Source: Neisseria sp. (GTDB lineage: Bacteria; Pseudomonadota; Gammaproteobacteria; Burkholderiales; Neisseriaceae). Taken from it: a stretch of DNA of 64,000 bases. Location of the stretch: positions 20,325 through 84,324 of the forward strand of contig NZ_JAUMUI010000010.1 of the NCBI RefSeq assembly GCF_030530745.1, in the 5' to 3' direction. The stretch's first letter is position 1. Each line of letters opens with the position of its first letter. Position numbers and translations under genes: made by a program. This document shows positions 43,103 to 50,523 of this stretch, in pieces. The notes beneath the pieces were generated by a model. It was not told the origin of the DNA. It saw only the letters and a program-made list of their open reading frames with translations, and ran no database searches.

Positions 43103-45727
43103 TTAATTCCGGCACTCGTCCAGCGAGGAAACGACCTGATAGGATACGCCGTCGAAGTTTTCAAAACATTTTCGGGCGCAGGCAATTTTCTGCCGTTCGC
43201 TTTCCCTTAATTTATCGAAATCCACGCCCTCCTGTATGCCTTTGCCCGTATTTTTGGTTTCGGCGACAAAATACACTTTCCCGCGGTTTTCCATCACCAG
43301 CGCCCAATCTGGGTTGTAATTGCCGATTGGGGTGGGGATTTTGAACCAGCCCGGCAGTTTGAAATACAGGCGCACGTCTTCGTGGTTTTCGCAATCGTGG
43401 GCGAAGCGGTTTTCCGTGTCGGAATCGAGCGGGATATAGTCGGCAAAAATGGTTTTCTGCCGTTTTGCGCTGTCTGCTTGGTTTACGGCAAAGGTATATC
43501 CGTTCATAAAAAATTCCGCACCGTTGTTTTCCAGCTCCTGCCAACGCGCCAGCGTTTGCGCGTATTCCTCTTTTTCAGGCAGCCTGAAATATTCGATGCC
43601 GTCTATCATCAGCGCATTCAAAGCCAGCAGGATTTTTTCCGCCGCCAAATCGATAAAGCGCTGCGGGTTGTTGCCGATTTCGCCGATGCGCCCTGATTCC
43701 CGCAACACCTCAAACAGCGTGGCGCGGGTCAGGCGGGTTTTCTTTTCCAACTCGTGCAGAATATCGGGCAAATCCCATTCGATTTCGGTTTGCTGCGTGC
43801 GGCTGTTGTTTTGCTCGCCCCAGATACCGTCGGTTTGCGTTTGATGAATGGCCGCTTTCTGCACCACAATCTGCGGTTTTTGCACCTGCGGCATTTCCGC
43901 CACCAGCTTGGCGGCCGTCTGAATCAGCGCATGGCGGTCAAACTGCACCCGATAACGTGTTTGCTGCTGCAATTTCTGCCAGATTTCTAAAAACACGGGG
44001 TCGAGCGTGAAGCCTTTGCGGAAGGTCTGCCGCTTGCGGTCGGCGGCTTTTTTCGCGCCGCCGTTGCCGAACCTGATGCCGCATTCGTCTTCGTATTCTT
44101 TTTGCAGGTTGGCGGCGAAACTTTCATAACTTTCGTTCGGAATCACCGTGAGAATGTTCACCCCTTCGTCGCGCACACGTCCGCCCTCTTGGTTTACCGC
44201 CAACCGCAGACCGCGCCCGATTTCCTGCCGCTTTTTAATCGGCGAGCGGGTTTCGTTAAGCGTGCAGATTTGGAATACATTGGGATTGTCCCAGCCCTCT
44301 TTCAGCGCGGAATGGGAAAAGATAAAGCGCAGCGGCGAATCGAAAGACAATAATTTTTCCTTGTCTTTCATAATCAGGTTATAAGTATCTTCATCGGCTT
44401 TGCTGCTGCCATTGGTGTCTTTATCACCGTTTTTATCCTGTGAAAAATAGCCGTCGTGCACGCCGTCCGCGCTTTCGCCCGTTTCTTTGCGGTAAATCTC
44501 TTCAAACCAGCGCGCGAATTTGCCGCCGTTGCGGTAATTCGCTACTTTGTCGATAAAAAACAGCGACAATACCTTAATCCCGCGCGCTTTCAGACGGCCT
44601 TCTTTTTTCAAATGCTCTTTTACCGTGGCGGCGATTTGTTGTTTCATCACCTCGTCGCGCAGTGCGTCCTGGTTTTCGCCCAAGGTCAGCACCGTGCCGT
44701 TGGAAAGTGCTAATGTGCCCGCTTCCGCGTCCAAACCGTTGACGATAAAACCGTGGCGGTAGCTTTCATTACCGTTTGATTTGTCGAACAAGTCATCTCC
44801 CGCAGCCACAGAAACCGTTTTCTTTTTGGTTTCCTTTTTATCCTGAACATGAATTTCCACTTTGGCCGTGAGCTTTTTCTTACCCTCGGAAAAACCCTGC
44901 AATACCGCATACGCGCCGTTGACATCGTTTTGCGCCAAAACGGGCATCACCTCAATCTGTTTCACCAGTTTTTTGTTATACGCCTCAATCGGGTTTAAGC
45001 TGTAAATTTTGTGATACGGGTTTTTATGCGTGGCCGAATAGCGCAGGGTAAACAAAGGGTTCAGCGCATCAATTGCCTGCTTGGCCAGCTCCGTTTCCAT
45101 ATTTTGCGGCTCGTCGATAATCACAATCGGGTTCGTGCCGCTGATGAACTTAATCGGCGCTTCGCCGCTTTCGTTCACGCGGTTAATCACATTGTCGTCT
45201 TTCTTAAACGCATCAATGTTCATAATCAGGATTTCAATATGGTTGTTGGCGGCGAAATTGCGCAAAGCATTCAAACGCCCGCTGCCATACACCGCCGAAT
45301 GGAACACGGGCTTGTCGAAGGCCGTCTGAAAATGCGGCGTCATCGCGCGTATGCTCTGCATCACACCCTCGCGAATGGCCACGCTCGGCACCACCATCAC
45401 GAATTTTTTCCAGCCGTAGCGTTTGTTCAGCTCAAACACCGTGCGCAGATACACATAAGTCTTGCCCGTGCCCGTTTCCATTTCAACGGAAAAATTCAGG
45501 CCGTGTTCGCCGATTTGCGTTTCAGGCTGCCTGAAAGCCTTCTGCACCGCATTCAGGTTTCTGCCGATTTCGCCGTGCGCCAAATGCAGGCGGTTGGCCA
45601 CAACGGGCGACGCGCCTGCCGCATTCAGTTCAAACATACTGTCATGGTTCGGCTCGCCCTCAAACAGGCGCACAACCGCCTCCACCGCTTCCTGCTGGTA
45701 ATCGAGTGTTTCAAATTTCAACTGCAT
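43103..45727 (-). CDS. Type III restriction enzyme, Res subunit
   Basis: The 874-residue ATP-dependent endonuclease. Helicase motifs: METGTGKT (Walker A, about 83-90), IIDEPQNM (DExx, about 203-210), RYSATH (motif III), SHSALKEGWDNPNVFQ and GRGLRLAVNQEG (motifs V-VI). The C-terminal nuclease PD-(D/E)xK is seen as NPDWALVMENRGKVYFVAETK. It works with Mod (46568-48542), normally encoded just upstream; here a RAYT and REP clusters separate them. It appears intact. Confidence 0.92.
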   Translation of the reverse strand: MQLKFETLDYQQEAVEAVVRLFEGEPNHDSMFELNAAGASPVVANRLHLAHGEIGRNLNAVQKAFRQPETQIGEHGLNFSVEMETGTGKTYVYLRTVFELNKRYGWKKFVMVVPSVAIREGVMQSIRAMTPHFQTAFDKPVFHSAVYGSGRLNALRNFAANNHIEILIMNIDAFKKDDNVINRVNESGEAPIKFISGTNPIVIIDEPQNMETELAKQAIDALNPLFTLRYSATHKNPYHKIYSLNPIEAYNKKLVKQIEVMPVLAQNDVNGAYAVLQGFSEGKKKLTAKVEIHVQDKKETKKKTVSVAAGDDLFDKSNGNESYRHGFIVNGLDAEAGTLALSNGTVLTLGENQDALRDEVMKQQIAATVKEHLKKEGRLKARGIKVLSLFFIDKVANYRNGGKFARWFEEIYRKETGESADGVHDGYFSQDKNGDKDTNGSSKADEDTYNLIMKDKEKLLSFDSPLRFIFSHSALKEGWDNPNVFQICTLNETRSPIKKRQEIGRGLRLAVNQEGGRVRDEGVNILTVIPNESYESFAANLQKEYEDECGIRFGNGGAKKAADRKRQTFRKGFTLDPVFLEIWQKLQQQTRYRVQFDRHALIQTAAKLVAEMPQVQKPQIVVQKAAIHQTQTDGIWGEQNNSRTQQTEIEWDLPDILHELEKKTRLTRATLFEVLRESGRIGEIGNNPQRFIDLAAEKILLALNALMIDGIEYFRLPEKEEYAQTLARWQELENNGAEFFMNGYTFAVNQADSAKRQKTIFADYIPLDSDTENRFAHDCENHEDVRLYFKLPGWFKIPTPIGNYNPDWALVMENRGKVYFVAETKNTGKGIQEGVDFDKLRESERQKIACARKCFENFDGVSYQVVSSLDECRN

Positions 45728-45737
45728 GGTTTATCCC

Positions 45738-45866
45738 GTAGGGTGCAACTTGTTGCACCATTTCTGTTTTCATGTAGGGTGCAACTGGTTGCACCACGCC
45801 TAATTTGTCCCTTTTGGTGCATCAAGATGCACCCTACGCTTTTCTGTGCATCAAGATGCATCCTAC
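45738..45866. repeat. REP cluster left of the RAYT gene
   Basis: Two direct copies of GTAGGGTGCAAC...GTTGCACC (45738, 45774) and two opposite-strand copies of the GGTGCATC...GATGCACCCTAC type (45816, 45846). All share a GTAGGGTGCA head and a palindromic stem. The last overlaps the RAYT stop codon. Confidence 0.88.
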
Positions 45867-46399
45867 TCGGGGTATAAATCGCGGATTTCCTGCGCGATGC
45901 CGCTGCCCCAGTCCTGACAATACAAACCGCTTTCCACATCACGGTGAAACGACGAAAACGGCCAATCCGCCACATTTTCCACATAGCCGTGTTTGACAGG
46001 ATTGAAATACACATAATCCATATGCCGCGCCAAATCTCCCTCATCACGGATAGCGTGTTCCCAAAACCGCCGCTGCCAAATGCCCAAGTCGCCGCGTTTT
46101 TGTTTGCTGGCATTCTGCCGTCGGCAGCTTTCAGGCAGTCTTTTGCTGAACAGCGTTTTGAACAAACGGATACGAATGGGATAATCCGCATCCTGTTCAG
46201 GCAGCCGCATCAGCCAATGCAGATGATCGGGCAAAACACAGATTGCCAAAGTTTCAAAAGGATAACGCCTTTTGGTTTCGGCAAAGGCCTCCCGCAAAAT
46301 GCCGATATGATCGGTTAACAGGGATTGCTTGCGATCTTCCAGCACCAAAGTGAAAAAATAAGTGCCGCCCGGGCGGAAATAACGGCGGTAGTCAGACAT
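45863..46399 (-). CDS. REP-associated tyrosine transposase (RAYT)
   Basis: The 178-residue Y1/HUH-type transposase begins MSDYRRYFRPGGTYFFTLVLEDRK. The metal-binding HUH motif is DHLHWL (about 58-63) and the catalytic Tyr is in MDYVYFNPVKHGY (about 127-139). RAYTs are single-copy domesticated transposases linked to REP palindromes. REP clusters lie on both sides of this one, which makes them its likely substrates. Confidence 0.9.
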   Translation of the reverse strand: MSDYRRYFRPGGTYFFTLVLEDRKQSLLTDHIGILREAFAETKRRYPFETLAICVLPDHLHWLMRLPEQDADYPIRIRLFKTLFSKRLPESCRRQNASKQKRGDLGIWQRRFWEHAIRDEGDLARHMDYVYFNPVKHGYVENVADWPFSSFHRDVESGLYCQDWGSGIAQEIRDLYPE

Positions 46400-46463: not shown

Positions 46464-46571
46464 GTAGGGTGCAACTCGTTGCACTTTTTCAAATTCGTTT
46501 TCAGTAGGGTGCAACTTGTTGCACCAATTTCAAATTCTACAAGACTTTTGGTGCATCAAGATGCACCCTAC
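46464..46571. repeat. REP cluster right of the RAYT gene
   Basis: Two direct GTAGGGTGCAAC-type copies (46464, slightly divergent; 46504) and one opposite GGTGCATC-type copy (46550-46571). The last supplies the TAG stop codon of mod. Confidence 0.88.
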
Positions 46572-48542
46572 AGCGTTTCAAACGCCACCCCCGCATCTTG
46601 GCATTGCAAGGCCGCATTGGTTTTCAGCGCATCATCGCCGCCGAATACCTTATCCAGCGCGAACACTTTTTGCGGCTGCTGTGCCAGCACATCGCGCAGC
46701 AATTCATCGCTGACCGTTTCCAGCAGCAGCGCCGTTTTGCGGCTCCCTGCCGCGTTGTCGAGCCACACCACGCCGTCTGAAAAAATCATCGGGTCGGTGA
46801 GTTGGAAACCCAAACGCAAGGCCAGTTCGTAGGCCATGTTTTCCACCGTGGCATGCGCTTCGACCACATCGCGGAAGATTTCCAGTTGCGCCTCAAGGCC
46901 GTCTGAACTGCGGTTGACGGGGCTTCGCCATTGCTTGAAATTGCTTTCCGCGAGTTTGAAGACTTTGAACCCCGTATCAGGTAGGGTGCAACTTGTTGCA
47001 CCATCTTTGAAACCCGTGTCAAGTAGGGTGCAACTTGTTGCACCACCGTTGTTTCCGTTGCCGTTTTGCGGTGCATCAAGATGCACCCTACGGATTTGCG
47101 CACCCGCGCGGCGGATGCGCTCTTTGGCGATTTCGGCGATGGTGGCAAAACCCGCTTTGCGCGCTTCGGATTTTTCTTCCGTTTCTTCGGGCAGCTGCAC
47201 GCAGATATAGCGGCGCTTGCCGCCGTCTTCGGCGTTAAGCTGCATCACGGCGTGGGCGGTTGTGCCGCTGCCTGAAAAGAAGTCGAGGATTAAATCGTTA
47301 TTACCTGTTGAACAACTTACAATTTTTTGTAACAGAGCAACCGATTTGGGACTATCAAACATTTTATCTTCAAATAATTTAACCTGTTCTTTTGTTGCTG
47401 CCTGATTTAAATAAGAATTGTCTATAAATAAACTATCAAGCATAGCATCTGAATTTTTAATTTCATTTTTATATCGTTTTAAAATAAAACCACGCTCTCT
47501 ATCAGAATGCTGTTCTTTGAATTTTATCTTTCCACTTTTAACCCATAACTCAAAATTTTCTTTTGAGAAAAACCATGCTCTGCCTTTTGGTGGTACATCT
47601 TCCCTTCCTGTAAATGGATTAACAATTGGATAACGGTCTCCATCGCGAGGTGCTGTTGGATTATCAGAAATCCATTCTCCATTCGGGTCGTTATCTGGAT
47701 TTTGATATTGTGAAAAATCCTTTTCTTCTCCTTTTAAGTAAGAAAGCTCTTTATTTTTGGCATAGCAAATTAAATACTCATGTTGAATATTGATACCTGT
47801 TTTTTCAACATTAGTAACACTTTTCGTTTTTCTAATAAATTCTGCTAAAAAATTCTCCGCCCCAAACACCTCATCACACAGCAATTTCAACTGCGCCTGT
47901 TCATTATCATCAATCGAGATAAAAATCACGCCGTCTTCGCGCAACAGGGTTTTCGCCAAATGCAGGCGCGGCAGCATCATATTGAGCCAGTTGCTGTGGT
48001 AGTGGCCGTTGTCGCGGCTGTTTTTGCGCAACGCGCCCTGGAACACGCCGTCGCGTTTCAGGTAGCCCAAGTCGTCTTTGTCGCCCACTCGTTTGGCGTA
48101 TTCTTCGCGGGTTTCGGAAAATTTGTCGGGATAGATAAAGGAATCGCTGCCCGTGTTGTAGGGCGGGTCGATATAGATCATTTTCACGCTGCCTGCATAG
48201 GCTTTTTGCAGGATTTTCAGCGCTTCCATGTTTTCGGCTTCGATAAACACGTTTTGCGTGGCATCAAAATCCACGCTGTCGCTTTTGCAGGGAATTAAAG
48301 TGTTGAAAGTGGGCGATTGCAGGGCGCGGTAGGCGGCGGATTTGCCTGCCCAGTTGAGTTGATAGCGTTCGTTGCTGTCGCAAAGGTTGTCTGCGCCGAG
48401 AATGAGTTTGAGCTTTTCCCAGTCGATTTGGTTTTCGCAGAAGGCTTCGGGGAAAAATTGTTTGAGTTTTAAAAGGTTGTTTTGTTGGAAATTATTTTCT
48501 AATTCGTGTATAATTTCGGTTCGGTTCGGTTCGGTTCGCCAT
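46568..48542 (-). CDS. Phase-variable type III DNA methyltransferase Mod (OFF configuration)
   Basis: Adenine methyltransferase and recognition subunit of the type III system. Catalytic DPPYNTG (motif IV) and DFFSGSGTTAH (SAM-binding motif I) occur in the beta-class order. The natural start is ATG 48542, with AAAGG eight bases before. It is followed by four ACCGA repeats that lead to a stop after 16 codons. With five repeats the frame joins the main frame and gives about 659 residues. The conserved N-terminus (LKQFFPEAFCENQIDWEKLK) is only reached that way; a GTG at 48274 would lose it. ACCGA repeats are known from meningococcal modD. A REP cluster lies in frame near the C-terminal third. Confidence 0.85.
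46981..47091. repeat. REP cluster inside the mod coding sequence
   Basis: Two direct GTAGGGTGCAAC-type copies (46981, 47023) and one opposite GGTGCATC-type copy (47070-47091), in the same arrangement as at 46464. They encode RRVHLDAPQ, GATSCTLLDTGFKD and GATSCTLPDTGFK and keep the frame open. Confidence 0.88.
48516..48535 (-). repeat. Phase-variation tract, four ACCGA repeats
   Basis: TCGGT x4 on the plus strand (ACCGA x4 in coding sense) starting four bases after the ATG of mod. Pentanucleotide gain or loss changes the frame; 2, 5 or 8 repeats would be ON, 4 is OFF. Confidence 0.88.
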
Positions 48543-48576: not shown

Positions 48577-48605
48577 AGGCCGTCTGAAATATTTTCAGAC
48601 GGCCT
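48577..48605. terminator. Uptake-sequence terminator of thrS
   Basis: AGGCCGTCTGAAA / TTTTCAGACGGCCT stem directly after the thrS stop and before mod. Confidence 0.75.
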
Positions 48606-48618
48606 GTTGCTGAACATA

Positions 48619-50523
48619 TTAATCGGCAGCCTGCAATTCTTTACGCAGGTGTGCAATAAAGTCTTCCAGCTTTATGCTGCCCAAGTCTTCGGCTTTGCGG
48701 CGCACGGCCACTTGGCCGTTTTCTTTTTCGTTTTCGCCCACTACGATTTGGTAGGGGTAGCGGTATTGGCTGTTGTCGCGGATTTTGTAGCCGATTTTTT
48801 CGTTGCGCAGATCAAGTTCGGCGCGGAAACCGGCGGCTTTGAGTTTTTCTACCACTTCGCGGCAATAGCCGGCCTGTTTTTCGGTGATGTTCATCACCAC
48901 CATTTGCACGGGGGCGAGCCACAGGGGGAAGGAACCGGCGTGTTCTTCAATCAGGATGCCGATAAAGCGTTCCAGCGAGCCCAAGATGGCGCGGTGGAGC
49001 ATCACGGGGCGGGCGCGGCCGTTGTCTTCGGTAACGTATTCGGCACCGAGGCGTTCGGGCAGCACGAAGTCGAGCTGAATAGTGCCGCACTGCCACGAGC
49101 GGCCGATGGCGTCTTTGATATGGTATTCGACTTTGGGGCCGTAGAAGGCACCTTCGCCGGGCAGTTCTTCCCATTCCACGCCGCAGGCGGTGAGCGCGTC
49201 GCGCAGGCCCTGCTCGGCTTTGTCCCAGATTTCGTCGCTGCCCGCGCGTTGTTCGGGACGCAGGGAAAGTTTGACCGACACGTTTTCAAAGCCAAACTGC
49301 TTGTAGACTTTCATCACCAGTTCGTTGAAGGCTTTGGCTTCTTGGGTAATCTGCTCTTCGGTGCAGAAGATGTGGGCATCGTCCTGCACGAAACCGCGCA
49401 CGCGCATCAGGCCGTGCAGCGCGCCGGAGGGTTCGTTGCGGTGGCAGGAGCCGAATTCGGCCAAACGCATGGGCAGGTCGCGGTAGGAGCGCAGGGTGTG
49501 GTTGAAAATCTGAACGTGGCCGGGGCAGTTCATCGGTTTGACGGCGTAGGTGCGTTTTTCCGATTCGGTAACGAACATGTTTTCCTGATAGTTTTCCCAG
49601 TGGCCGGATTTTTCCCAGAAGGCTTTGTCCATCATCAGGGGGGTTTTGATTTCCTGATAGCCTGCGGCTTCGAGTTCGCGGCGCATGTGTTGTTCGATTA
49701 CCTGCCATAAGGTCCAGCCGCGCGGGTGCCAAAACACCATGCCGGGGGCTTCGTCTTGCAGGTGGAACAGATCGAGCTGTTTGCCCAGTTTGCGGTGGTC
49801 GCGCTTTTCTGCCTCTTCCATGCGAGTGATGTAGGCTTTCAAATCTTCTTTGCTCGCCCATGCGGTGCCGTAGATGCGTTGCAGCATTTCGTTGTTGCTG
49901 TCGCCGCGCCAGTAGGCGCCGGCCAGTTTGGTGAGTTTGAAGTTTTTGAGGAAGCGGGTGTTGGGCACGTGCGGGCCGCGGCACATATCCACATATTCCT
50001 GATGGTGGTAGAGGCCCATGGCTTCGACTTCGGGCATGTCGTCAATCAGGCGCAGTTTGTATTCTTCGCCGCGCTCGGCGAAGGTTTTGATGGTTTCGGC
50101 GCGCGGGGTCATCACCTTAATCACGTCGTAATCTTGCGCAATCAGTTCTTTCATGCGCGCCTCGATGGCCGCCATGTCTTCGGGCGTGAACGGTTTTTCG
50201 GTGGCGATGTCGTAATAAAAGCCGTCTTCTATCACGGGGCCGATCACCATTTTGGCGTCGGGGTAAAGCTGTTTGACCGCATGGCCGACCAAGTGGGCGC
50301 ACGAGTGGCGGATGATTTCGACACCTTCCGGGTCTTTAGGGGTGATGATTTGCACGGCGGCATCTTCGGTAATAGGATCAGATGCATCGCGCAATTCACC
50401 GTTTACCTTACCCGCTACGGTTGCTTTGGCCAAGCCCGAACCGATATCGGCAGCAATTTGGGCAACGGTAACCGGGGCTTCGTATTGGCGGACGGAACCA
50501 TCGGGCAGGGTAATATTAATCAT
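48619..50523 (-). CDS. thrS: Threonyl-tRNA synthetase
   Basis: The 634-residue class II synthetase has an N-terminal TGS domain ([15 protein letters not shown]), an editing domain ([19 protein letters not shown]), a catalytic core with [10 protein letters not shown] and [15 protein letters not shown], and an anticodon-binding C-terminus. ATG 50523 is chosen: GGAG sits seven bases before it, and 50 residues of the longer frame overlap the tRNA-Val. Normally infC follows directly; here the island does. Confidence 0.97.

Follow-up and report, generated by a model that had tools for sequence, protein, structure and literature searches.

A type III mod gene read out of frame behind four ACCGA repeats, with an open res gene, in a Neisseria genome

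Gene content of the mod-res locus

A predicted type III restriction-modification locus was encoded on the minus strand of the 64,000-nucleotide stretch of Neisseria sp. DNA that was analysed (the window). The Mod body, a type III DNA adenine methyltransferase by frame translation and profile matches, occupied 46568..48517 (649 codons and a stop) and was out of frame with the ATG in front of it. It matched PF01555 with 135.7 bits and the PADLOC profile MTase_III at 2.4e-184, and its solved-structure matches included a Mod (6k0w) and the EcoP15I Mod (1.1e-67), in agreement with the type III methyltransferase named in the preliminary description. Alignment of Mods placed the DPPY motif at 48158..48169 (minus strand; body residue 117) and the FxGxG methyl-donor motif, here DFFSGSG, at 47264..47284 (minus strand; body residue 412). 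The variable DNA recognition domain lay between them at 47318..47857 (minus strand; body residues about 221-400), giving the order DPPY, recognition domain, FxGxG of a type III Mod with an N6/N4 adenine methyltransferase domain. In the conservation profile of 19 aligned Mods (of 45 loci), the first 220 residues were conserved, residues about 221-400 were not, and the end was moderately conserved. dN in the N-terminal part was 0.07-0.14 against a dS of 0.27-0.76 (six comparisons, of 18 aligned relatives), indicating that Mod is under constraint although the observed allele is out of frame. Such constraint fits a gene that would be in frame often enough.

The res gene (43103..45727, minus strand) was open throughout, a point overlooked in the preliminary description. 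Its 874-aa product, a predicted type III restriction subunit, matched PF04851 and PF19778 as well as PADLOC REase_III (3.2e-298), and EcoP15I Res was among its solved-structure relatives. The locus thus combined mod with a predicted Res carrying helicase and endonuclease domains, as expected of a type III system.

Also overlooked earlier was an insertion separating mod from res, made up of a transposase gene and GTAG-tagged palindromes; one element had entered mod itself. The gene between mod and res (45863..46399, minus strand) encoded a 178-aa REP-associated tyrosine transposase (RAYT; NF047646, 192.8 bits at a cut-off of 80). By pattern search, the stretch from mod to the transposase gene held three palindromes (46469..46566) and that from the transposase gene to res another three (45743..45832); a third triplet, all GTAG-tagged, lay in an insertion in mod (46981..47091, minus strand) as a REPIN-like pair and a 42-nt duplicated copy. 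The insertion kept the frame and sat in a linker that differs in length among the relatives in any case. A 42-nt tandem duplication was seen in the mod coding sequence at 46963-47045 (two copies, 92% match); changes in its copy number would alter the length of the Mod linker with the frame kept. The GTGCAWCNNGWTGCAC palindromes numbered 25 in the genome, on four contigs, and nine of them made up the three triplets of the mod-res locus. The palindromes were GTAG-tagged and stood in facing pairs, here beside a RAYT gene, resembling the GTAG REPs that are described in PMC3733652 as tagged palindromes in opposite-facing pairs and that were already described there inside genes. The present case differed from that account of GTAG REPs and RAYTs in that one element lay within a phase-variable mod, and in that merely 25 palindromes on four contigs were present. 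The 18-bp palindrome GGTGCAACNNGTTGCACC occurred in 3 of 47 genus genomes, at 13 places here and at one place each in two others. Searches of the other 44 loci gave no RAYT match; mod was present with res, or at least its start, in 13 of them, and the remainder stopped short of res.

Elsewhere in the same genome (G000), with gene names assigned by eye, palindrome clusters lay among pilin-like genes (contig C23) and before a sodium:alanine-symporter-like gene (C43), and a single palindrome lay near a porin-like gene (C42). A second RAYT gene formed one open frame (L137; C51:5195-5632) and a third was split over two frames (L138-L139; C11:6621-7060); the stretches taken around these two genes (L143, L144) held no palindromes.

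The upstream neighbour of mod (48619..50523, minus strand) was presumably thrS, judged by its protein sequence. An inverted repeat with the word GCCGTCTGAA, a Neisseria DNA-uptake word, lay between the two genes (48579..48603) and is a possible terminator of thrS. A scan with a simple sigma-70-like consensus gave no promoter on the minus strand immediately 5' of mod.

The ACCGA tract and the reading frame of mod

The mod reading frame opened with an ATG (48542-48540, minus strand), preceded at 8 nt by AAAGG, a likely ribosome-binding site. Four ACCGA units (48516..48535, minus strand) followed. The preliminary description had put four units directly after the ATG; the number was correct and "directly" was nearly exact, GCGA intervening between the ATG and the first whole unit. 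In a repeat scan of the window, the pure period-5 run extended over 24 nt (48515-48538, minus strand). With four units, the ATG opened a frame of 16 codons followed by TAA (48492..48542, minus strand), whereas the Mod frame started at codon GAA 48517 (protein EIIHELENNF...) and ran to the stop at 46570-46568. The distance from the ATG to the Mod body was 25 nt, which places the body in frame for unit numbers equal to 2 mod 3 (2, 5, ...). The stop after 16 codons, the restoration of the frame by five or two repeats and the out-of-frame state of the allele had all been proposed previously, and each was borne out by the frame translation and this arithmetic.

The tract was the sole pure array with a period of 4-9 and at least four units in the window, and 100 first-order Markov resamples of the window sequence produced no such array. 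Runs of at least three consecutive ACCGA units were confined to a single place in the 2.28-Mb genome (two overlapping matches of one tract), with zero occurrences of the reversed control pattern genome-wide. A chance origin of the repeat was rejected on the resamples and the genome-wide count. The unit length is indivisible by three, and the repeat sits between the start codon and the body and shifts the frame, as in phase-variable mod genes. Four units fall below the five from which pentanucleotide tracts were counted in two surveys (PMC5953494, PMC7371114), a survey threshold that does not itself define the mechanism; tetranucleotide tracts with at least 3 units are reported to vary at high frequency (PMC4751487). 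Switching of the four-unit tract may be rare, given its shortness.

Mod relatives were found in 33 of 47 genomes of the genus, taken to be Neisseria since the matches in G023 and G010 coincide in position with those in N. polysaccharea ATCC 43768 and Bergeriella denitrificans NBRC 102155. Tracts were read in 45 loci, made up of 15 of the 80 kept loci of a wider search (L003-L017) and all 30 genus loci, with some genomes entering twice; loci L018-L082 of the wider search were set aside. At least two ACCGA units ahead of the conserved AATTATA were present, by exact pattern only, in 10 of 84 family genomes, all of them in the genus. With one genome per species, tract length in these ten ranged from 3 to 21 whole units: 4 in the genome studied here, 7 in G008, 15 in G011, 10 in G010, 8 in G017, 3 in G023, 12 in G028, 4 in G033, 21 in G021 and 5 in G040. 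In three genomes, mod lay beside thrS, and there the tract held 4 (own), 8 (G017) and 21 (G021) units. The earlier claim of phase variation therefore stood in so far as tract length differs among related genomes, including at the same chromosomal site; judged from these relatives, the tract may also switch within its own population.

ON and OFF calls used an ATG, GTG or TTG located up to 45 nt 5' of the tract. All ten ACCGA mods of the genus were out of frame, four with a remainder of 1 and six with a remainder of 2. One fixed alternative start or frame in all relatives was ruled out, as the ten OFF loci occupy both OFF phases. Outside the genus, the mod of Rappaport israeli B08008 (L003) had 10 ACCGA units and was in frame. 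The accompanying Res match (about 8512-11107 in L003) shifted frame at about residue 266, though Mod was in frame. In Cardiobacterium valvarum NCTC13294 (L004), mod was preceded by a run of 75 ACCGA units, with an interruption and more repeats ahead of it; this run far exceeds the 2-15 units given in PMC4751487 for meningococcal modD. L004 was left without a call, no start being present within 45 nt of this run. In other mods of the branch, the position of the ACCGA tract was taken by AGCAACC or ACAGC units or by a G run.

Under free slippage, one third of the alleles would be expected in frame, compared with 0 of 10 ACCGA mods in the genus (P = 0.017), 1 of 11 when R. israeli was added (P = 0.075) and 3 of 17 when all repeat-bearing mods of the close branch within the genus were taken (P = 0.13, not significant), the genomes not being independent in any of these counts. 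The 17-mod count excluded G044, where the N-terminal match was split and the ATG frame ended after 4 codons, as well as the distant mods L100-L108, the remnants L109-L112 and the non-genus loci L003, L004, L006, L009 and L015-L017. Together these counts are weak evidence of an excess of OFF alleles among ACCGA mods, suggestive in the genus alone, and the 0 of 10 would also fit loci drifting to loss. In five of the 47 genus genomes (G009, G014, G025, G036, G038), the best match was merely 46-61 residues at the start of Mod. The stubs L109-L112 and G025 C1:1982494-1982631 are likely remnants of a related mod. A search of 72,556 plasmid records gave 788 matches, all below 60% identity, showing no close plasmid copy in that collection.

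Recognition domains and likeness to modD

The recognition domain of the window Mod (residues 240-360) was 88% identical to that of R. israeli and at most 34% identical to those of the other aligned Mods. The R. israeli mod shares the ACCGA tract as well, but it belongs to an organism outside Neisseria, has 10 units in frame and is accompanied by a frame change in the Res match. At the thrS site, the recognition domains of the three mods were 15-25% identical to one another. The mod of G008 (L084) was close to the window mod at both ends (90% N-terminal and 94% C-terminal identity), had the same repeat unit and was likewise out of frame; it differed in its recognition domain (34% identical), in its 7 whole units and in having no thrS match within its 1.5-kb flank. 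The recognition domains of G008 (ACCGA) and G043 (G run, L085) were 100% identical over residues 240-360, and the backbones of the two proteins were 88% (N-terminal) and 85% (C-terminal) identical. Recognition domains thus seem to be exchanged among mods whose repeats differ.

In N. meningitidis, modD carries a tract of 5'-ACCGA-3', and ModD1 has a phasevarion and the motif CCAGC according to PMC13248682, consistent with the unit having been linked to meningococcal modD in the preliminary description. PMC4751487 describes mod genes as having repeats in the N-terminal part and conserved end domains on either side of a variable recognition domain; one mod gene is defined there by >90% identity in the end domains, and modD is said in that survey to seem Neisseria specific. 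The window gene resembles modD in encoding a predicted type III Mod, in its ACCGA unit and in its N-terminal-repeat layout, and differs in species; its recognition domain may lie outside modD1-7. By the >90% description of the end domains, it would group with the G008 mod or at its edge. Compared with the ACCGA Mods of N. polysaccharea and N. viridiae (L092, L097), it was 82% identical in the N-terminal part and 47-48% in the C-terminal part. Over the first 55 residues, these two Mods matched the remnants L109-L111 at 50-51 and L112 at 43-44 positions; the corresponding figures for the window Mod were 40 and 34. That the window mod belongs to modD proper is doubtful on these signs, which are indirect and come from the Mods and remnants of other genus genomes. 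We regard it as an ACCGA-type, modD-like mod by its repeat unit and layout and have not filed it as modD. The ACCGA-tract mods of R. israeli and C. valvarum show that the wider ACCGA mod type extends beyond the genus, and no publication on them was recognised in the literature searched.

Proposed switching of restriction and methylation

It is very likely that mod of this type III locus is translated according to the number of ACCGA units between its start codon and its conserved body. Slippage during replication would alter the unit number. With four units, the short ATG frame would yield no full-length Mod, and restriction and modification would both be off in the clone although res reads open. 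Five or two units bring the body into frame by arithmetic; that such changes occur here, and how often, is judged from the relatives. Mod made from these alleles would, together with Res, give restriction. The likely benefit would be a small subpopulation differing in methylation and in restriction of phage or incoming DNA, with possible effects on transcription. The Res of a type III system depends on Mod for DNA recognition. Without Mod, Res could not recognise DNA; the ACCGA switch therefore probably shuts down restriction along with methylation, and turning restriction on or off is probably what switching does first.

Three other readings were weighed against this one. The system would be always on if Mod were synthesised despite the four units, whether translation began at GTG 48274 or at a rare start (CTG 48598 or ATT 48514, for example) or ribosomes shifted frame within the tract. 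All three codons are in the Mod frame, which was open from 48640 through the tract and also held several ATT and ATA codons upstream of it; ATT 48514 lies just 3' of it. The existence of another in-frame start had been named beforehand as grounds against an OFF allele. No ATG, GTG or TTG was present in the Mod frame from the upstream stop (48643) to GTG 48274, which is body codon 82, but the rare-start codons do exist. Starting at the GTG would discard 80 conserved residues; in the alignment of 19 Mods, which counts the window's own, the 20-residue blocks of this part averaged 59-81% identity to the window protein. By eye, no AGGAG-like core preceded any of the three codons. Frameshifting would have to work both ways, the relatives being OFF in two phases. 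Constant expression is accordingly very improbable. A stalled or nearly locked-OFF system is unlikely but deserves more weight; here the tract would have contracted to four units, switching would now be very rare, and the locus would be on the path to loss. This reading would account for a tract shorter than the pentanucleotide cut-off of PMC5953494 and PMC7371114, for the relatives that retain just the start of mod, for the lack of in-frame ACCGA mods in the genus and for the invasion of the locus by a transposase and palindromes, one element being inside mod. However, the 649-codon body and the 874-codon Res were both open, Mod retained both motifs, and the inserted element preserved the frame in a linker of variable length. 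Open mod bodies were likewise found in G033 (four units) and G023 (three units).

The remaining reading accepts the switch and limits its role to restriction bet-hedging with no gene-regulatory function, so that the term phasevarion would be inapplicable. We give it serious consideration and slightly less than even credence. It is consistent with the presence of an open Res here and with a near-full-length, one-piece Res match 3' of mod in 11 of 15 loci (L003-L017). In the other four, Res was in two frames (L003), was cut by the contig end (L006) or had no match, the sequence ending soon after mod (L015, L017). Against it, methylation by related phase-variable Mods, for example meningococcal ModD1, is reported in PMC13248682 to change the expression of gene sets. 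Regulation of other genes by this Mod is possible by analogy with such systems.

Translation of mod set by its unit number is a kind of on/off switch already known, and the locus is a further example of it. ACCGA-type switching of type III restriction-modification is extended here to another Neisseria genome and, with res open, probably covers restriction as well as methylation. A broader picture, which we put forward as a speculation and think rather improbable as a whole, is that Neisseria ACCGA systems are OFF in most cells and ON in a rare subpopulation, that recognition domains are swapped between mods with different units and between bacterial families, and that the palindromic element in mod adds a second layer in this genome, its 42-nt copies altering linker length without a frame change. 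The four-unit tract here and the ten-unit, in-frame mod of R. israeli, with nearly the same recognition domain, offer a ready test of the methylated motif.
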